From Natrinema longum (GTDB taxonomy: Archaea; Halobacteriota; Halobacteria; Halobacteriales; Natrialbaceae): 64,000 nt of DNA. Each line of letters opens with the position of its first letter. Positions within the stretch are counted from its first letter, which is position 1. Location of the stretch: positions 3,162,001-3,226,000 of the forward strand of contig NZ_CP071463.1 of NCBI RefSeq assembly GCF_017352095.1, in the 5' to 3' direction. Made by a program: the position numbers and the translations under genes. Under the pieces are notes generated by a model. It worked only from the letters and a program-made list of their open reading frames with translations, made no database searches and was not told the DNA's origin. This document shows, piece after piece, positions 2,945-12,301 of this stretch.

Positions 2945-3385
2945 TCAGTCGGTCGTTGCGTCCATTTCGTCGGTCGTTTCCACAAGCGTCTCGTCGCCGG
3001 CCATCGCGTGGAGGTGTTCGAGCAGGAGTCCGAACCCCTCCGGCTTGACCCAGGTCGTGACCGCGCCTTCGTCTTCGACCTCCTCGAGGACCTGTTCCTC
3101 GTCCCGGACCGGGACGGAGAACTCGACCGGCTGGTCGAAGCGATCCTCGTTTTCGGCGATCAGGTGCTGTACTTCCTCGAGTTCGCGACGGACGTATTCG
3201 AACGAATCCATCGACTCGGTGTCGTCGCCGATGACGAACCGACGGGTTTGCCCGTCGTCCAGGTCGAGTCTCACGACGCCGCCCTCGATGCGGTCGTCCT
3301 CGAGATACTCGGTCAGGACGTCGTCGAAGAAGTCAGTCGTCATCCGGTCGCCTCGCGGTTTCGACTCCGTACTGTCTGGCGTCAT
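2945..3385 (-). CDS. Unrecognised haloarchaeal acidic protein
   Basis: A 146-residue, highly acidic soluble protein with no signal peptide or membrane segment. It has a beta-rich middle (VVRLDLDDGQTRRFVIGDD) and a helical segment with many Glu. I do not recognise the family. The gene is real by codon usage and because a TATA box sits about 19-28 nt before its ATG. It is transcribed away from the heme d1 operon, and the 255-bp space between the two carries both promoters. Confidence 0.6.
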   Translation of the reverse strand: MTPDSTESKPRGDRMTTDFFDDVLTEYLEDDRIEGGVVRLDLDDGQTRRFVIGDDTESMDSFEYVRRELEEVQHLIAENEDRFDQPVEFSVPVRDEEQVLEEVEDEGAVTTWVKPEGFGLLLEHLHAMAGDETLVETTDEMDATTD

Positions 3386-3640: not shown

Positions 3641-5482
3641 ATGTCACAATCCGAGTCAGCGGCCCAGTCGATGGCGGACCACGAGGAACGGATCAAGCGC
3701 CACTTGAGCGCTTCGAGAGAGATCGCGAAGAACCTGGAGTTCGACGACGAGCTCCACTTCGAGATGGGGCTCCCGAGTCCGGGTCGTCGGACGTTCCTGA
3801 AGACGAGCGGCATCGTGGCGGCGTCGGCAGCACTCGCGGGCTGTGCCAGTAACGAAGACGACGATTCGCCGGGGCCGACGGACGACGACGAGGATGGGGA
3901 CTCGTCGAACGAAGGGACATCGGACGCACAGCAAAGCGAGACCGTTCAGTTGTCGGCACATCAATACGAGTTCCAACCCCAGGAGATCCGAGTGGCTCCG
4001 AACACGGAACTCACCATCGAGTTCACGGAGTCGACCTTCGAGCAGAACTCGGACTTCAAATTCCACACGTTCTATCTCGAGGAGCCATACGACGTCGGGC
4101 CGGTCAATCTGCCCGAGAACACGGACGACGAGGTGATCGATTCGGTCACGTTCGTCACCGACGAAGAGGGGACCTTCGACTTCGAGTGTAACATTTACTG
4201 TGGGGACGGACACGCCCAGATGAACGGCCAACTGTACGTCGTTCCCGAGGGCGAGTCCGTCGACAAGGTCGACTTCACCGACATGGAGACGCTGAAAGAG
4301 CGTCACGAGGTCCTCAAAGAAGAGAGCGAACTGGCCCAGGAGCCCCAACACGACCTCGATCTGCGGGACATCATGGTCGTCACCGAGCGCAACAACGCCT
4401 CGGTCGCGATGATCGATACGGTCAACGACGAGCTCATGGAGCGGGTCGAGAACGTGGGGAAGGCGATCCACGTTCACGACTTCCATCCCGAACTGCCCGA
4501 GCAGACACGCGAGGGTGCGTACGTGTATACGCAATCGCGCCAGGGGGAGATGTACAAGATCGATCTGTTCGACTTCGAACGGGTCGCGGTCGCCGACGCC
4601 GGGACGGACGCCCGGGACATCGCCGTCTCCAGAGACGGCAACTACGTGATCGGCGGGTTCTACAACCCGAACCACCTCGTCATCTGCGACGCAGACACGA
4701 TGGAGCCGATCAAGCGGATCCCGACCCACACCGTCAACCCCGACGGCGAGAGCCTCGGGAGCCGGGTCTGCTCGCTGTACGACGTTCCCCACGAAGGGCT
4801 GTTCCTCGCGGGACTCAAGGAGGGCGGCGAAGTGTGGCTCATCGACTACACGCAGGAGGAGTTCCCGGTCGTGGCGACCATCGAATGCGGTCGAACCCTC
4901 CACGACGGGTTCTTCACGGACGACGGTCGCTACTTCATGATCGCCTCGCAGACGGACAACCAGATGGACATCATCGACACGCAAGAACGGAGCCACGTCG
5001 CCGCGATTCCGATGGACGGGGTGCCACACCCCGGTCCCGGCGCGCTCTACCCCGACGAGGACCTCGCCTTTACCACCCACGCGGGCGCGCCGAGCGTCGG
5101 CGTCTGGAACACGGAGACCTGGGAGGCCGAGCAGATGATCGACGTCAGGGGCTCGGGACTGTTCATCCGGAAACACGAGAACAGCGACTACGTCTGGGCC
5201 GACGTCATCCTCACCGACAGCGAGGACGACGCCTACGTCTACACGATCGATCCCGAGACCCTCGAGGTCGACCAGGAGATCGACTGCAGCCAGTGGGGTG
5301 CCGCCGCCGCGATCCACCCCGAGTTCAGCCGCGACGGCGAGAAAGTGTACATCAGCGTCTGGATGGGCGAGAACGAATCGATCCTCGTGTTCGATCCGAA
5401 CACGGGCGAACTGCTGACCCAGATCGAGGATCTGCTGGCACCGACCGGGAAGTTCCTCGGCGTCCGCGCTGAGGGGCACTGA
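3641..5482 (+). CDS. CuA cupredoxin-cytochrome d1 fusion (NirS-like), Tat lipoprotein
   Basis: A 613-residue exported protein. After a 47-residue cytoplasmic extension come a Tat motif (R49-R50-T-F-L-K) and a lipobox Cys68, so it should be anchored outside the membrane. Residues about 85-205 form a cupredoxin with a complete CuA site: H142 (FKFHTF) and C183-x3-C187-x3-H191-x2-M194. Residues about 246-613 match the eight-bladed d1 propeller of cytochrome cd1 nitrite reductase: proximal His candidate H277 (KAIHVH), active-site His in LHDG (H421) and PHPG (H463), then LFIRKHENSDY, ISVWMGENES and APTGKF. No heme c motif CxxCH is present; CuA appears to replace the cytochrome c domain. A d1-heme nitrite (NO-forming) reductase or related oxidoreductase is inferred. 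It is the first gene of an operon with NirF-like, NirJ-like and HemA genes. Confidence 0.85.
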   Translation: MSQSESAAQSMADHEERIKRHLSASREIAKNLEFDDELHFEMGLPSPGRRTFLKTSGIVAASAALAGCASNEDDDSPGPTDDDEDGDSSNEGTSDAQQSETVQLSAHQYEFQPQEIRVAPNTELTIEFTESTFEQNSDFKFHTFYLEEPYDVGPVNLPENTDDEVIDSVTFVTDEEGTFDFECNIYCGDGHAQMNGQLYVVPEGESVDKVDFTDMETLKERHEVLKEESELAQEPQHDLDLRDIMVVTERNNASVAMIDTVNDELMERVENVGKAIHVHDFHPELPEQTREGAYVYTQSRQGEMYKIDLFDFERVAVADAGTDARDIAVSRDGNYVIGGFYNPNHLVICDADTMEPIKRIPTHTVNPDGESLGSRVCSLYDVPHEGLFLAGLKEGGEVWLIDYTQEEFPVVATIECGRTLHDGFFTDDGRYFMIASQTDNQMDIIDTQERSHVAAIPMDGVPHPGPGALYPDEDLAFTTHAGAPSVGVWNTETWEAEQMIDVRGSGLFIRKHENSDYVWADVILTDSEDDAYVYTIDPETLEVDQEIDCSQWGAAAAIHPEFSRDGEKVYISVWMGENESILVFDPNTGELLTQIEDLLAPTGKFLGVRAEGH

Positions 5483-5508: not shown

Positions 5509-6654
5509 ATGTCCGACACCCACACCGAAACGACGGCAACGACCCGGCACGCACGGGGGCCGCTCGCGCTCGTCAAGCACCTCCGCGGAGCGGGGTTTAC
5601 CGTGATCGATGCGGATAGCCACGAGCCGATCGGCCGAGTCGGCGAGGGACGCCAGCCTCACGCGCTCGCAGCCCACCCGGGCGGACGCTGGGCGTACGTC
5701 CCCTACATGGCGTCGAACGCGCTCGAGGTCGTCGATCTCCGGACGCTCTCCGTCGCGGACCGCGTCGAGACGGTCGGCACTGCGCCGGTGGGAGCGGTCC
5801 TGACCCGGACCGGACGGTACCTGTTCGTCAGCACCTACGGAGGGCTTCCCGGGGACGATCGGCCCGGACTCGCCGTCTTCCGTACGGACGGCGAACAGGT
5901 CGAACTGGTCGCGGAACTCCCGACGGGGAAGGCCGCCGGGCTGACGGTCGACGTCCGGAACGACGTCTGGGTCGCGCTGAAAGACGCCGACGAGGTCGTC
6001 CGCATCTCGGGGACGCCGCCGTTCGCGGAGCGCGACCGGTTCGCGGTCGCCGGTGGTCCCCAGGACCTGGCGTACGACCCGGCGTACGGACTGCTGGGCG
6101 TGAACGACGTCGACGCTGGAAGCGTCACGTTCGTGGACGCACTCGAGGCATCGGTGCTCGGCTCGGTTCCGGTTCCGAACCCGCGAGGGGGGACGGCCGT
6201 TCCGGCCAGCGATCGGTGGTTCGCCGGGAACACCGACGGAGACGGCGTCACGGTAGTCGACGTGAACGCGGTTCGACGCGACGACACCGATTCGACGGCC
6301 GTCGAACACGTCCCGCTGGGAACGGCCACCGCCTTTACCGACGCGACCCCCGACGGGGCGCTGGTCGCCGTCGACGCGTACGACGACGACCGCGTCACGT
6401 TCCTCGAGCCGGCGACCCTCGAGATCGTCGCGCGGGTCGAAACTGGCCCGACGCCCCGTCATCCGCAGTTCAGCGCGGACGGGCGGGTCTGTTACGTTCC
6501 GAGCGTCGACGGCGACGCGGTGACCGTCATCGATGTCGACGCGATCCGCTCGACGGGTGATTCCCCCCACGATCCGATCGTGACGAAGATAGATTTGCCC
6601 GACGGGGCCGGGCCTGCGGGCTGTTTCCGTACCGACAGAGGGAGATATCCATGA
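5509..6654 (+). CDS. NirF-like beta-propeller protein 1
   Basis: A 381-residue YVTN/NirF-type propeller with repeated blades such as GRWAYVPYMASNALEVVDL and GRYLFVSTYGG. It has no signal peptide, so it should be cytoplasmic. H51 in GEGRQPHALAAHPG sits where NirS and NirF carry their blade-1 His. NirF acts late in heme d1 synthesis in denitrifying bacteria (dihydro-heme d1 dehydrogenase). Here the role is inferred from fold, this His and position between the d1 protein and the NirJ-like gene. The gene starts 26 nt after the CuA-d1 stop and overlaps the next gene by ATGA. A heme chaperone role is an alternative. Confidence 0.7.
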   Translation: MSDTHTETTATTRHARGPLALVKHLRGAGFTVIDADSHEPIGRVGEGRQPHALAAHPGGRWAYVPYMASNALEVVDLRTLSVADRVETVGTAPVGAVLTRTGRYLFVSTYGGLPGDDRPGLAVFRTDGEQVELVAELPTGKAAGLTVDVRNDVWVALKDADEVVRISGTPPFAERDRFAVAGGPQDLAYDPAYGLLGVNDVDAGSVTFVDALEASVLGSVPVPNPRGGTAVPASDRWFAGNTDGDGVTVVDVNAVRRDDTDSTAVEHVPLGTATAFTDATPDGALVAVDAYDDDRVTFLEPATLEIVARVETGPTPRHPQFSADGRVCYVPSVDGDAVTVIDVDAIRSTGDSPHDPIVTKIDLPDGAGPAGCFRTDRGRYP

Positions 6655-7793
6655 CTTTCGATACCGATAGCGCAGCCGTCGCGACCGAAGGATCGTCCCG
6701 CACGCCGACGATCGTCAAGAACGCCGCGAGCAGCCACTTCAGCGCGGTCGCCCTCTCCGAGGGTGAGGTCCTCGCAGCGGTCGGCGAGGGACGGTACCCG
6801 CACACGGCGCTGTTCCATCCGGACGCACCGGTCGCGTACCTGCTGTACATCGCCAGCGCCCATCTCGAAGTCCTCGACCTCGAGCGCCTGGAGACCGTCC
6901 AGCGCGTCGACCGGCTCGGAACGATGCCCGTCGGGAGCGCGCTGGGCCCCGGCGGCGACTCGCTGTTCGTCGGGACTGCGGTCGACCTGCCGACGGCGTC
7001 CGATCCGGGCGTTATCGCGTTCGATATCGACGAGGACGGCCGACTCGAGCCTGCGGGCACGCGGCCGCTCTCGCGGAGTTCCGGCATGCGGATCGGCCCG
7101 GACGACCGCCTCTACGTGGGCCAGAAGATCGAGGACGAAGTCGCCGTGCTCGGCGCGGACCCCCGGCTCGAGGTCGAGGCGCGGATCCCCGTCGGCGCGG
7201 AGCCACACGACCTGTACGTACTCGACGACGACGGGCTCCTGGTCGTCAACCACGCCGGCGGCTCGTCGGCCTCCTTCGTCGACGCGGCCGCCGAGCGGGT
7301 CCGCTGTACCGCCGAGACGGGGACGAATCCGCACGGTTTCGCCGTCGCGGACGGGCCCGAGTATCGGTACGGGCTGTTCCCGGCCCGCGAGGACGACCGC
7401 GTCGCCGTCGTCGATCTCGAGGCGGCCGCGGCGGGCGAGGCGTCGTCGACCGAAACGCTGCTCGACGTCGAAACGACGACCGGTTTCGCCGGCGTGAGGC
7501 CGGACGGCCGCTACGCCATCGTCGACTCCTACGACGAGCAGTTCGTGACGATCCTGAACCTGACCGACCTGTCCGTCGCCGGTCGCGTCGAGATCGGCGG
7601 GGAACCGCTCCACGTCGTCTTCGGCCCCGACGGCGAGGAGTGTTACGTCGGGAACATGGAGCGGACCGACCTCGCGGTGCTCGACACGCGACCGCTTGCC
7701 GACGATCGTCCGGCGGACGTCGCAGTCGGCCGCCGAATCGACGGGTTCGGGGAGAAACCGAGCGGCATCTTCCGCCCGGAGGTGGACCAATGA
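6651..7793 (+). CDS. NirF-like beta-propeller protein 2
   Basis: A 380-residue paralog of the preceding propeller, also without a signal peptide. Its His is at the same residue number, H51, in GEGRYPHTALFHP. Blades such as VAYLLYIASAHLEVLDL, PHDLYVLDDDGLLVVNHAGG and EPLHVVFGPDGEECYVGN are readable. ATGA overlaps at both ends show translational coupling with its neighbours. Two adjacent copies suggest a heterodimer or a split of NirF-type and NirN-type tasks. Inferred to act in heme d1 maturation or handover. Confidence 0.7.
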   Translation: MTFDTDSAAVATEGSSRTPTIVKNAASSHFSAVALSEGEVLAAVGEGRYPHTALFHPDAPVAYLLYIASAHLEVLDLERLETVQRVDRLGTMPVGSALGPGGDSLFVGTAVDLPTASDPGVIAFDIDEDGRLEPAGTRPLSRSSGMRIGPDDRLYVGQKIEDEVAVLGADPRLEVEARIPVGAEPHDLYVLDDDGLLVVNHAGGSSASFVDAAAERVRCTAETGTNPHGFAVADGPEYRYGLFPAREDDRVAVVDLEAAAAGEASSTETLLDVETTTGFAGVRPDGRYAIVDSYDEQFVTILNLTDLSVAGRVEIGGEPLHVVFGPDGEECYVGNMERTDLAVLDTRPLADDRPADVAVGRRIDGFGEKPSGIFRPEVDQ

Positions 7794-9010
7794 TCGATCT
7801 CACACGACTCATCAGAGGACTCGACAACCGACCGGAACAGATCCGTTACGAGAAGCGCCGCGCGAGCGACGCCCTCGTCCCGCTGGTCGTCTGGAATACG
7901 ACCCCCGCGTGCAACCTGCGGTGCAAGCACTGCTACTTCGGGGCCTGCGACGAGCGCGACAGCGAGGAGCTGTCGACCGCCGAGGCCAAGGCCTTCATCG
8001 ACTCGCTGGCCGCGGTGAACGTGCCGGTACTCGTCTTTAGCGGCGGGGAACCGTTCTTCCGCGACGACATCGCCGAACTCACCCGGTACGCCTCGGAACG
8101 GGGATTGCGTCCGATCGCCTCGAGCAACGGGACCTTCCTCACCGAGGAACGCGCCCGAGACGTGGCCGACGCGGGGATGCAGTACGTCGGCGTCTCCCTG
8201 GACGGCGTCGGGGCGACGAACGACGAGTTCCGCGGCGTCGACGGGGCCTTCGAGCGAGCCCGCAACGGACTCCGCAACGCCCGTGACGCCGGGATGGGGA
8301 CGGGGATCCGGTGTACGATGACCCAGGGAACCGTCGACGACGTCCCCGCGGTGATCGATCTCGCCGTCGAGGAGGGGATCGACCGCGTCAACCTCTTTCA
8401 CCTCATCTACTCCGGACGCGGCGGCGACATCACCGACGCCGACCTATCGTTCGAGCGCACGCGTGAAATCGTGGACTACCTCTACGAGCGAACCAAAACG
8501 CTCGCCGAGACCCACCCCGACATGCAGATCCTGACTGCCGGCAACTACGCCGACGCGGTCTACCTCTACCACCGGATTCGAGAGGACATGCCGGCCCACG
8601 CCGAACGGGCTCGGGAACTCCTGTTCGACGACGGCCCCGGTCGAGTGGTCAAGAACGGCGACGCCGGCCCGAAGGTCGTCAACGTCGACCACCGCGGCGA
8701 CGTCCACCCGAGCATGTTCCTCTCGCAGTACACGCTCGGGAACGTCCGCGAACAGTGCCTCGACGAGATCCTCGCCGAAAGCGATCTCTGGTCCGAGCTG
8801 GCCGAGCCGACCGACCACCTGAACGGGAAATGCGGCCGCTGTCCGTGGAAGGAGGTCTGTGGCGGCAACTCCCGTGCCCGCGCCGCCGCGGTCTACGACG
8901 ACCTCTGGGCCGAGGATCCGCGGTGTTATCTCACCGACGCCGAGTACAGGACGGCGGAACTCCCGCCCGAACACACGCCTCGGGTCGACGCGCCCGTAGT
9001 ACTTGAGTAG
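7790..9010 (+). CDS. nirJ: Radical SAM heme d1 synthesis protein, NirJ-like
   Basis: A 406-residue radical SAM enzyme. C41-x3-C45-x2-C48 (CNLRCKHC) binds the SAM cluster, and FSGGEPF is the SAM-binding GGE motif. The C-terminal auxiliary cluster set is C348-x2-C351-x5-C357-x21-C379, with the sequence VCGGNSRARA. In my recollection CGGN/CNGNTRVRA is typical of NirJ, while AhbC and AhbD have CGGCRARA. Further NirJ-like landmarks are YSGRG, AGNYADA and LGNVRE with a VHP segment. NirJ removes two propionates from didecarboxysiroheme. AhbC of the alternative heme b pathway is the main competitor; the d1 operon context favours NirJ. The gene overlaps its upstream neighbour (ATGA) and is 4 nt from hemA. 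Confidence 0.8.
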   Translation: MIDLTRLIRGLDNRPEQIRYEKRRASDALVPLVVWNTTPACNLRCKHCYFGACDERDSEELSTAEAKAFIDSLAAVNVPVLVFSGGEPFFRDDIAELTRYASERGLRPIASSNGTFLTEERARDVADAGMQYVGVSLDGVGATNDEFRGVDGAFERARNGLRNARDAGMGTGIRCTMTQGTVDDVPAVIDLAVEEGIDRVNLFHLIYSGRGGDITDADLSFERTREIVDYLYERTKTLAETHPDMQILTAGNYADAVYLYHRIREDMPAHAERARELLFDDGPGRVVKNGDAGPKVVNVDHRGDVHPSMFLSQYTLGNVREQCLDEILAESDLWSELAEPTDHLNGKCGRCPWKEVCGGNSRARAAAVYDDLWAEDPRCYLTDAEYRTAELPPEHTPRVDAPVVLE

Positions 9011-9014
9011 ACAG

Positions 9015-10313
9015 ATGCACGCACCCGACTTGGCACCCACCGACGCGAGAACCGACCTCGACTCGGCGACGGTCGCGACGATGCCAAAGAGCGTCCGCCG
9101 GCTCGCGTGTTGCCGGGTCAGTTGCGCCACGCACTCGACGGACGAGTTGGGAGCGATCCGGCCGGCCGAACCGCTCGAGGTTGCCCGTCGGATCGCAGGA
9201 CACGACCGCGTCACTGAGGCGGTCGTCCTCTCGACGTGCAACCGGGTGGAGGCGTACTGCAGCACTCGGACGCCGGCGGATCGGGACGAGGGGCTTCGCG
9301 TCGCACGCGAGGCGCTCGGCGATCCCGACGGCGCGCGGACGGAGACGGGGCTCGACGTCGTCGACCACCTGTTCCGCGTCGCCTGCGGACTCGAGAGCAC
9401 CGTCGTCGGCGAGGCTCACGTCCTCGGACAGCTCCGTCGAACGTTCGAAACGGCACTCGAGGCGGGGCTCGCCGGCGGCGTGGTGACGCGGACGGCGGAC
9501 GCAGCCGTCTCGGTGGGACGGCGCTGCCGCGACGAGACCGACATCAACGAGGGGACGGTCAGCTACGGGAGTGCGACCTGTGAGCGACTCGAGGCTCGCG
9601 GCCGAGTGCCGGACCGCCTCGTCGTCGTCGGCGCGGGTGAGATGGCGACCTCGGTCGCGAAGGCAGCCACGCATCGATGGGAGAGTCGCGTCGACGTCGT
9701 CAACCGCTCGAGCGCGCCGGAGATAGTCACGGCGGACGGGAAATACTGGCCGCTCGAGTCGCTGGGAGCGGCGATAGCCGACGCGGACGCCGTCGTGACG
9801 GCGACGGGCGCGGCGGACCCAGTGGTGACCGCCGAAACGATGCGGGAACTCGAACGCGAGACGGTCGTCGTCGACCTGGCGAACCCGCCGGACGTCGCCG
9901 AGGCGGTTCGACACTCCGCCGTTCCGGTCATGGATCTCGACGAAATCCAGGCCGGGATCGAGGCGGCCGTCTCGGGTCGGCGGGACGCGATCCCGGCAGT
10001 CGAAGCTGCGGTGACCGACGCGGTCGCGTCGTTCGTCGATCGGGAACGCGAGAACCGCGCCGAGGACACGCTCCGGGGCCTCCACCGCACTGCGGCGACG
10101 ATTCGTGAGCGCGAACTCGAGCAGGCGCGGACCCGCCTCGAGAACGGGGACGACCCCGAGGCCGTCTTGGACGACTTCGCCAGCGCGCTGACCGGGTCGC
10201 TCCTCGGGACGCCGACCGAACGCCTTCGGACGGCTGCACGCGACGGCGACGATGCGATCATCGAGGCCACACACCGACTCTTCGATCTCGACGCCGACCT
10301 CGAGGAGTCGTGA
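9015..10313 (+). CDS. hemA: Glutamyl-tRNA reductase
   Basis: A 432-residue glutamyl-tRNA reductase, the NADPH enzyme making glutamate-1-semialdehyde for tetrapyrroles. The nucleophile Cys75 is in LSTCNRVEAY, the HVLGQLRRTFE and GSATCERLE segments follow, the Rossmann motif is VVVGAGEMA, and a C-terminal dimerisation domain ends the protein. The N-terminus (ACCRVSCATHSTDELGA) looks unlike the usual haloarchaeal HemA start. This, with its place as last gene of the heme d1 operon, suggests a second, pathway-dedicated copy. ATG 9015 is preferred to the in-frame TTG at 9003. Confidence 0.9.
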   Translation: MHAPDLAPTDARTDLDSATVATMPKSVRRLACCRVSCATHSTDELGAIRPAEPLEVARRIAGHDRVTEAVVLSTCNRVEAYCSTRTPADRDEGLRVAREALGDPDGARTETGLDVVDHLFRVACGLESTVVGEAHVLGQLRRTFETALEAGLAGGVVTRTADAAVSVGRRCRDETDINEGTVSYGSATCERLEARGRVPDRLVVVGAGEMATSVAKAATHRWESRVDVVNRSSAPEIVTADGKYWPLESLGAAIADADAVVTATGAADPVVTAETMRELERETVVVDLANPPDVAEAVRHSAVPVMDLDEIQAGIEAAVSGRRDAIPAVEAAVTDAVASFVDRERENRAEDTLRGLHRTAATIRERELEQARTRLENGDDPEAVLDDFASALTGSLLGTPTERLRTAARDGDDAIIEATHRLFDLDADLEES

Positions 10314-10511: not shown

Positions 10512-11465
10512 ATGGATACCCACGACGGTCGCGGTCGGAGTCCCTCGAGGAGCCGTCGGGAGTTACTCGCTGGTGCGGGCGGCCTCACCGCGGGACTCGT
10601 CGGGACTGCGGGTTGTCTCGGCAGCACCGACGGGGTTCGGGTGCTCGCTGCGGGCAGCCTTGCTATCGCCCTCGAAGAGCGGATCGGCCCGGCGTTCGAA
10701 GCCGAGTCCGACGTCCACTACGAGGGCGAATATCACGGGACCAACGCGGTGTTGCGGCTGGTCGAGGACGGAACGAAGTATCCGGACGTCGTGATCGGAG
10801 CCGACATCGAACTCCTGCGGGATCGACTCTACCCCGACCACGCCGACTGGGACGCCTCGTTCGCGGCCAACGAGGTCGTGATCGCCTACGAACCGGAGAC
10901 CGAGCTGGGGGCGTGTCTCGAGACCGATCGCCCGTGGTACGAGTGTTTCGGCGACGCCGACGAGGGGGCGATCGCGATCAGTGATCCGGATCTCGACCCG
11001 CTTGGCTATCGGGCGCTCCTCCTCTTCGAACTCGCCGAACGGGAACACGGGCTCGACGGGTTTCGCGACGCGATGGCCGACACAGTCGCTTACGTTCCCG
11101 ACGAGACGCAACTGCTCGCCGATGTCGAGAGCGGGAATCGCGCCTGTGCGGTCGCCTACAGCAATATGGCGGCCGAGCGTGAGGTCGCCGTCCGCCGGCT
11201 CTCCGACGCGTACAACTTCGGTGCGCCCGCCGCCGCCGACCGGTACGCGCAGGCGAGTTACACGACCGCTGATGGCCACACTGTCGAGGGATCGCCCGTC
11301 GTCTACAACGCGACGGTCCGTACCGACGCGGACGATCCCGTGGCAGGACGGGAGTTCGTCGCGTTCCTCCTCGAGAACGACGACCTGCTCACCGAGTCCG
11401 GACTGCGCGTCGACGACTCGTTGCCGCGATTTCACGGCGATCCGCCGGAGGCGATCAAGCCGTGA
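10512..11465 (+). CDS. wtpA: Tungstate/molybdate-type ABC binding lipoprotein
   Basis: A 317-residue exported substrate-binding protein with an N-terminal twin Arg (SRRELLAGAGG) and lipobox AGC, so Tat-exported and lipid-anchored. The mature part opens VRVLAAGSLAIALEERIGPAFE, the pattern of the WtpA/ModA family (AGSL at the oxyanion site). It continues with GTNAVLRLVEDGTKYPDVVIGAD, DPDLDPLGYRALL and the late AVAYSNMAAE segment. Tungstate versus molybdate cannot be told by reading. GTGA overlap with the permease gene shows one operon. Molybdopterin enzymes such as nitrate reductase would need this substrate, which fits the neighbouring d1 operon. Confidence 0.8.
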   Translation: MDTHDGRGRSPSRSRRELLAGAGGLTAGLVGTAGCLGSTDGVRVLAAGSLAIALEERIGPAFEAESDVHYEGEYHGTNAVLRLVEDGTKYPDVVIGADIELLRDRLYPDHADWDASFAANEVVIAYEPETELGACLETDRPWYECFGDADEGAIAISDPDLDPLGYRALLLFELAEREHGLDGFRDAMADTVAYVPDETQLLADVESGNRACAVAYSNMAAEREVAVRRLSDAYNFGAPAAADRYAQASYTTADGHTVEGSPVVYNATVRTDADDPVAGREFVAFLLENDDLLTESGLRVDDSLPRFHGDPPEAIKP

Positions 11466-12301
11466 GCAGCTCCAGTCCTGAGGGCCCTGATGACCATCGT
11501 CCCCGTTTTACTGCTAGCTTCGAGTGGCTCCCGACGGGGCTGGCCGTCCCGGCGCTACTCGGCGCAGTATTGCTCGCGTACTTCGTCGTCCCCGTCGCCG
11601 TCTTTCTGCTTCGAATGCGGGCGGTCGATCTCGTCGCCGGGCTCACGGATCCGACGATTCGGGACGCGATCAGAACCTCGCTGGTGACGGCCCCGGTTTC
11701 GACGACCATCGCGACCGTCTTCGGCGTCCCGCTGGCGTACGTCCTCTCGCGGGGCTCGTTTCGCGGCAAGCGGCTGGTCGAAGCGCTCGTCTTGCTCCCG
11801 CTCGTCGTCCCGCCGATCGTCGGCGGCGTGATGTTGCTGACCATCGTCGGTCGATACACGCCGATCGGCGCGGCCGCCGTGGCGCTCGGGATGCCGTTGA
11901 CGGGAAGCCACGCCGGCGTCGTCCTCGCCCAGACGTTCGTCGCCGCGCCGTTTCTCGTCGTTACCGCCCGCGCGGGCTTCGACGGCGTCGATCCCCGCCT
12001 CGAGGAAGCCGCGCGGACGATGGGGTACGGGCCACTGCGAACGATACGACTGGTGTCGCTGCCGCTCGCGCGCAACGCCATCGCCGCCGGGATCGTACTG
12101 ACGTTCGTCCGGGCGATCGGCGAGTTCGGCGCGACGATGATGGTCGCGTATTCACCGCGGACCATGCCCGTTCAGATCCGCGTCTCGTTTATCGCTCGTG
12201 GGATCGACGCCATCGTCCCCATCGCGCTCGCCTTGCTCGCGATCGCCGTGATCGTCGTCGTCGCCGTCCAGTTGCTGGTCGGAACGCCCAAGCAACACTG
12301 A
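11462..12301 (+). CDS. wtpB: Tungstate/molybdate-type ABC permease
   Basis: A 279-residue BPD-type permease with about six membrane segments. The coupling-helix region EEAARTMGYGPLRTIRLVSLPLARNAI and the GEFGATMMVA segment are characteristic of ModB/WtpB/CysW permeases. GTG start overlaps the stop of the binding protein (GTGA). No ATPase gene follows; an ATPase encoded elsewhere is needed. The first 25 residues are a polar cytoplasmic tail. Confidence 0.85.
   Translation: MSSSSPEGPDDHRPRFTASFEWLPTGLAVPALLGAVLLAYFVVPVAVFLLRMRAVDLVAGLTDPTIRDAIRTSLVTAPVSTTIATVFGVPLAYVLSRGSFRGKRLVEALVLLPLVVPPIVGGVMLLTIVGRYTPIGAAAVALGMPLTGSHAGVVLAQTFVAAPFLVVTARAGFDGVDPRLEEAARTMGYGPLRTIRLVSLPLARNAIAAGIVLTFVRAIGEFGATMMVAYSPRTMPVQIRVSFIARGIDAIVPIALALLAIAVIVVVAVQLLVGTPKQH

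Follow-up and report, generated by a model that had tools for sequence, protein, structure and literature searches.

A CuA cupredoxin fused to a cytochrome d1 propeller in haloarchaea, probably a nitrite reductase wired without heme c

The protein encoded by the first gene of a five-gene operon in Natrinema longum, here termed CuA-d1, combines an export signal, a CuA cupredoxin and a cytochrome d1 propeller within a single chain; judging from its sequence and modelled structure, it is probably a heme d1 nitrite reductase that would receive electrons by way of CuA, with no heme c. Textbooks know the established enzyme as cytochrome cd1, a name built on heme c; a conserved lineage with CuA in that place shows the d1 catalyst to be open to rewiring. 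A preliminary description of the window (the whole 64-kb stretch of DNA that was analysed) had proposed a CuA-wired d1 enzyme, a reading that the present comparisons support and to which they add conserved neighbours resembling d1-synthesis genes and an association with eNOR and NirK. The protein and its parts are laid out as follows:

3641 to 5482, forward strand: CuA-d1 protein, 613 residues, with Tat lipoprotein signal, CuA cupredoxin and cytochrome d1 propeller
3641 to 3844, forward strand: residues 1-68, conserved N-terminal extension, twin-arginine motif RRTFLKTSG and lipobox up to C68 (TIGR01409)
3923 to 4261, forward strand: CuA cupredoxin domain, residues 95-207, ligands H142, C183, C187, H191 and M194, recognised by profile and fold
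4358 to 5461, forward strand: cytochrome d1 propeller, residues 240-607, pocket histidines H277 (axial), H421 and H463 (Pfam Cytochrom_D1)

The reading frame and every ligand position given in the preliminary description were recovered as listed, although an in-frame GTG three codons upstream of 3641 is a possible alternative start. The product had also been described as an exported lipoprotein, and this prediction is backed by the Tat signal model TIGR01409 (17.6 bits, cut-off 16.7) and by an AGC lipobox that follows the twin-arginine signal; R49, R50, A66, G67 and C68 are invariant in the homolog alignment. An acidic linker connects the lipobox to the cupredoxin. The stretch preceding the twin arginines (3641-3784, about 48 residues) is conserved and unusually long for such a signal. 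The 613 residues contain no CxxCH heme c motif, in agreement with the earlier claim, and CuA stands where NirS has heme c, in the N-terminal electron-transfer domain. The pattern C-x3-C-x3-H-x2-M occurs once across the six frames of the window. Chance, frameshift and misassembly are ruled out as sources of the fusion, because both the CuA and the pocket ligands are invariant in 15 genomes.

Taken alone, the cupredoxin matches COX2/CuA models weakly (CoxB, E=1.9e-5; 2cua, E=0.08 by phmmer). A profile built from 11 homologs, however, found its best PDB matches in the CuA domains of NosZ and Thermus/Cox2 (E ~2e-5), with both cysteines, both histidines and the methionine aligned to the CuA ligands of these proteins; the comparison with Cox2 and NosZ that had been called for thus came out in favour of CuA, by profile and by fold (Z ~12). 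In particular, the domain as modelled with AlphaFold2 (pLDDT 88) is closest to the CuA domain of NosZ (Z 12.7, 2.2 Å over 98 residues), followed by Thermus CuA (Z 12.1-12.4, 1.8 Å over 93 residues), and other cupredoxins come close behind. It is the invariant ligand pattern, rather than the fold score, that marks the domain as a predicted CuA site: the five ligands (His, C-x3-C, His, Met) are conserved in 15/15 fusion genomes, down to about 50% identity. The CuA domains of NosZ and cytochrome oxidase subunit II have the same fold and the same arrangement, an upstream histidine and then C-x3-C-x3-H-x2-M, to which CuA-d1 adds a d1 propeller.

The propeller belongs to the cytochrome d1 family by profile (Pfam PF02239 Cytochrom_D1 on residues 240-607, E=9.4e-76, 255 bits, cut-off 25.5) and by fold; a placement outside the family, one of two results that the preliminary description had set as counting against it, did not appear, and nor did the other, a failure of the ligand residues to converge on metal or heme sites. 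The solved folds nearest to the model of residues 85-613 (pLDDT 85, pTM 0.84) are those of NirS, at Z ~51 (1hzv, Z 51.6, 2.0 Å over 403 residues), followed by NirN (Z 47), NirF (Z 40) and then others at 34. Alignment to annotated NirS, NirN and NirF sequences places H277 at the axial d1 histidine of Pseudomonas NirS, H182, and H421 and H463 at H327 and H369, so that the histidines proposed for the d1 site were borne out; the roles of the three Pseudomonas residues are given in PMC8756737. All three are invariant in 15/15 fusion genomes. The position of H421 (LHDG) is histidine in NirS, aspartate in all NirN compared and tyrosine in NirF, and this match with NirS at all three positions points to a pocket of the nitrite reductase kind.

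The d1-domain tree unites CuA-d1 with a haloarchaeal cytosolic paralog in one clade (support 93/98), apart from NirN, from NirF and from a separate NirS clade (100/100). CuA-d1 is therefore outside NirS proper, in a haloarchaeal d1 clade of its own, and is not named NirS because it has neither the heme c of that enzyme nor a place in its clade; it nonetheless appears to hold what NirS needs to work. With NirS (1nir, 1aof) it shares the d1 propeller fold, the three pocket histidines, an N-terminal electron-transfer domain and export, but NirS has heme c, whereas CuA-d1 has CuA, a Tat lipoprotein signal, a separate position in the tree and other cofactor genes. NirN and NirF are likewise d1-binding propellers, but lack an equivalent of H421, and NirN has a heme c that is absent from CuA-d1.

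The fusion was found in 15 of 391 haloarchaeal genomes in a class-wide sample. The named relatives are Natrinema ejinorense, N. pallidum, N. altunense, N. thermotolerans, N. gari, Halorubrum salipaludis, Halorubrum amylolyticum, Natronomonas sp. LN261, Halobiforma haloterrestris and Halobiforma nitratireducens. Outside the haloarchaea, a sample of the phylum gave a single match, a d1 domain without CuA (genome G682, 30% identity over residues 232-605). The scan of genome contigs for relatives used two short d1 patterns, which distant CuA-d1 fusions may escape. Viral contigs yielded no relative, and no PLSDB plasmid record covered the CuA part, the matches there being d1 domains and one copy of the cytosolic paralog. 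That paralog (L018-L025, for example L018:1450-2706, forward strand) is 45-48% identical to the CuA-d1 propeller and keeps the three pocket histidines without CuA or a signal; it occurs in 8/15 CuA-d1 genomes and 0/376 of the other genomes searched, and is possibly a d1 carrier, an enzyme or a sensor.

The nearest bacterial d1 proteins are 34-38% identical and all have heme c motifs; no CuA was found beside a d1 domain in the bacterial relatives examined (L056-L072), where the proteins around d1 all carry CxxCH. The Chloroflexi C1-C2-NirS chimeras (PMC8756737) also place unusual electron-transfer modules before the NirS domain, some with N-terminal cupredoxins, but they keep heme c domains, and the one compared here has a type 1-like cupredoxin with CxxCH and not CuA alone. 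In this Anaerolineae protein (L058:1079-2926), the type 1-like cupredoxin and the heme c motif share a single chain with a d1 propeller.

The preliminary description knew of no such enzyme. In the literature searched (subscription papers and preprints lay outside its scope) no CuA- or cupredoxin-d1 architecture, operon or CuA swap is described, and to that extent the claim stands; the annotation of haloarchaeal 'nirS', however, is already in print, as PMC11052009 (2024) reports nirK together with nirS, by KEGG annotation, in 21 haloarchaeal genomes of seven genera, among them genera that carry CuA-d1. In the passages covered here, that paper does not discuss the domain make-up of the 'nirS' protein. 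An earlier account (PMC8400030, 2021) gave NirK as the only respiratory nitrite reductase of haloarchaea, a view that CuA-d1 challenges.

Downstream of CuA-d1, the operon continues with four genes:

5509 to 6654, forward strand: propeller protein 1, no signal peptide seen (Cytochrom_D1, E=9.3e-10; NirF 6tv2, E=8e-7)
6651 to 7793, forward strand: propeller protein 2, no signal peptide seen, conserved in the operon (Cytochrom_D1, E=7e-4)
7790 to 9010, forward strand: NirJ/AhbC-like radical SAM SPASM protein, the genome's third paralog
9078 to 10313, forward strand: second glutamyl-tRNA reductase, HemA (TIGR01035, 240.8 bits, cut-off 209.6, scanned from 9003)

ATGA-type overlaps of 4 bases occur at the propeller genes. 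The gene order is kept at all CuA-d1 loci, with 43-97% identity (43-69% in Halobiforma), except that the glutamyl-tRNA reductase was not found at one locus (L038, genome G223). Propeller 1 is a weak d1-family relative for which a late cofactor step is proposed, and propeller 2 is proposed to perform a cofactor step or to act as a chaperone; neither is called NirF or NirN, because phmmer gave no match between them and the CuA-d1 propeller.

The radical SAM gene tracks the fusion closely, with an ortholog more than 70% identical in 15/15 CuA-d1 genomes versus 0/20 related genomes without it, whereas two housekeeping paralogs (45% and 38% identity) are present in most genomes of both sets. All five operon radical SAM proteins tested carry CxxxCxxC and the auxiliary motif CX2CX5CX20-21C, which is taken for NirJ from PMC12505453 and is common to AhbC and NirJ. 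The protein scores below the NirJ cut-offs (NirJ1, 365 vs 650 bits; NirJ, 336.7 vs 515.45 bits) and lies outside the bacterial NirJ clade in the tree, and it is therefore called NirJ/AhbC-like. The operon copy of glutamyl-tRNA reductase makes a second one in 14/15 CuA-d1 genomes versus 0/20 others, all of which have one. Bacterial d1 clusters show the same tendency, with hemA in Aliiroseovarius and a GluTR-like ORF beside a planctomycete d1 gene. Siroheme decarboxylases are present in CuA-d1 genomes; a link between the fusion and a second decarboxylase of the AhbAB type was rejected, as that gene occurs in nearly all genomes compared.

Several observations concern the surroundings of these genes. 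A divergent ORF of 146 residues (2945-3385, reverse strand) adjoins the operon and is conserved in Natrinema and Halorubrum, with no Pfam match. After the operon come a WtpA/ModA-like binding protein and a ModB-like permease (10512-12301, forward strand), and the gene listed next is a Bat-type regulator, not an ATPase. Further, one housekeeping AhbC/NirJ-type protein (L088:3785-5002, reverse strand) falls in the TIGR04347 'pseudo-SAM' family yet has an intact CxxxCxxC, so that the family name looks misleading.

eNOR was found in 14/15 CuA-d1 genomes versus 6/20 others, and NirK above its cut-off in 14/15 versus 8/20; Fisher tests give nominal p values of 3e-4 and 1.5e-3, respectively, which overstate the association because the genomes are related and the 20 comparison genomes were simply taken in listed order from the same genus and family. 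The one carrier without a full NirK (G091) is a fragmented assembly in which pieces of NirK are present. The fusion as a replacement for NirK was accordingly rejected, and CuA-d1 is not the sole nitrite reductase of these genomes, since NirK accompanies it in nearly all of them.

Copper genes lie next to the fusion in some hosts. For example, a divergent cluster adjoining CuA-d1 in Halobiforma encodes SCO1/SenC, a redoxin, a copper ATPase, a CuA subunit II and a COX1-like subunit; a membrane protein encoded there looks CcdA-like by eye and has no Pfam match. SCO1/SenC is an assembly factor for CuA. The COX1-like subunit carries GHGTQQ, with Gln four residues after the CuB histidine, at three loci (L054, L055, L029) and in the window's genome, and the CuA subunit II adjoins this eNOR subunit at the same three loci; Gln at this position is the eNOR signature (PMC8756737). 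In another genome (G143), CuA-d1 has this eNOR set as its neighbour together with a copper ATPase, near a NirK gene. eNOR has CuA as its point of electron entry, as is proposed for CuA-d1, and the two share genomes and, in part, a locus; eNOR differs in acting on NO and in being a membrane enzyme of the heme-copper type.

Of the 15 CuA-d1 genomes, 12 lack the heme c assembly family PF01578, that of Natrinema longum among them; most of these cells would thus be unable to mature a heme c NirS, a likely reason for the swap to CuA. The only three carriers with heme c assembly are Halobiforma genomes, and their genes weigh against this reason.

In the proposed mechanism, a donor on the outer side of the membrane, which may be halocyanin, would hand electrons to CuA, and from there they would pass to heme d1 bound by H277; nitrite would be reduced to NO in the pocket formed by H421 and H463, and the NO would go to eNOR. 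The operon radical SAM protein and the cytosolic propellers would make a d1-type cofactor from didecarboxysiroheme, with the extra glutamyl-tRNA reductase raising the tetrapyrrole supply. Insertion of the cofactor would probably precede export, since the proteins that Tat carries are already folded; its completion, too, may be cytosolic, given that no signal peptide is seen on the operon propellers and that the reductase is a predicted Tat substrate. The operon suggests a route of d1 synthesis without periplasmic c-type cytochromes. In bacteria, NirC is a c-type cytochrome that acts with NirF. Bacterial NirF, NirC and NirN act in the periplasm (PMC13168839). The wider picture, a d1 system free of heme c that would complete its cofactor in the cytosol without NirC, load it before Tat export and use CuA entry for both nitrite reductase and eNOR, is offered tentatively and is open to more doubt than the assignment of the enzyme itself.

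The assignment as a CuA-wired nitrite reductase is supported by the D1 profile, the NirS fold, the kept H421, the CuA profile and fold and the operon order, together with the association of the radical SAM protein, the glutamyl-tRNA reductase, eNOR and NirK with the fusion, the Sco and copper neighbours, the absence of PF01578 and the siroheme decarboxylases. Against it weigh the radical SAM scores under the NirJ cut-offs, the weak d1 likeness of the operon propellers, the presence of NirK and the absence of an obvious NirC counterpart from the CuA-d1 system. The NirK genes, together with the separate haloarchaeal groups formed by the radical SAM protein and the two propellers and the wider use suggested by the cytosolic paralog, would suit a different d1-like tetrapyrrole acting on another substrate (NO, O2 or hydroxylamine), perhaps in detoxification; this is unlikely, as all three catalytic histidines of NirS are kept and eNOR co-occurs almost always. 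Somewhat less probable again is a NirN-like maturation enzyme that oxidises a d1 precursor and passes electrons to CuA, leaving nitrite to NirK. NirN is indeed the best single phmmer match in the PDB, the gene sits among cofactor-synthesis genes and NirK co-occurs, but H421 is as in NirS where every NirN compared has Asp, Tat export and CuA suit a terminal reductase better, and the genome has no other exported d1 acceptor, its only other D1-domain match being operon propeller 1.

A d1-based sensor or an electron shuttle without turnover is very improbable: propellers are versatile and NirK is present, but for a sensor it would be costly to keep full ligand sets in every homolog and an operon devoted to its cofactor. 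Hardly credible is a nitrous oxide reductase of the propeller-plus-CuA type, either NosZ or the lactonase-type L-NosZ, even though propeller and CuA lie in one exported protein, the closest CuA domain is that of NosZ and the L-NosZ profile gives E=1.4e-13. That profile matches only part of the propeller and scores 50 bits where its cut-off asks for 700, while D1 scores 255 bits; moreover, the domain order is reversed, CuA coming first in CuA-d1 and the propeller first in NosZ and L-NosZ, and the kept histidines are those of the d1 pocket. L-NosZ identity was rejected on score and domain order.

As a CuA-wired nitrite reductase, CuA-d1 would allow electron transfer into heme d1 to be studied in a natural protein, free of overlapping heme c spectra, and may be a further source of salt-lake NO and N2O. 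It can be tested because many of its hosts are cultured strains of Natrinema, Halobiforma, Halorubrum or Natronomonas. A bacterial parallel to the gene neighbourhood is seen in a planctomycete cluster (L057:7075-20123), which encodes a GluTR-like ORF, a d1 protein with two heme c motifs, NirJ-like, propeller, decarboxylase-like and CobA-like proteins, a CuA subunit II, an eNOR-type subunit I with GHVSQQ and a Sco-like ORF.
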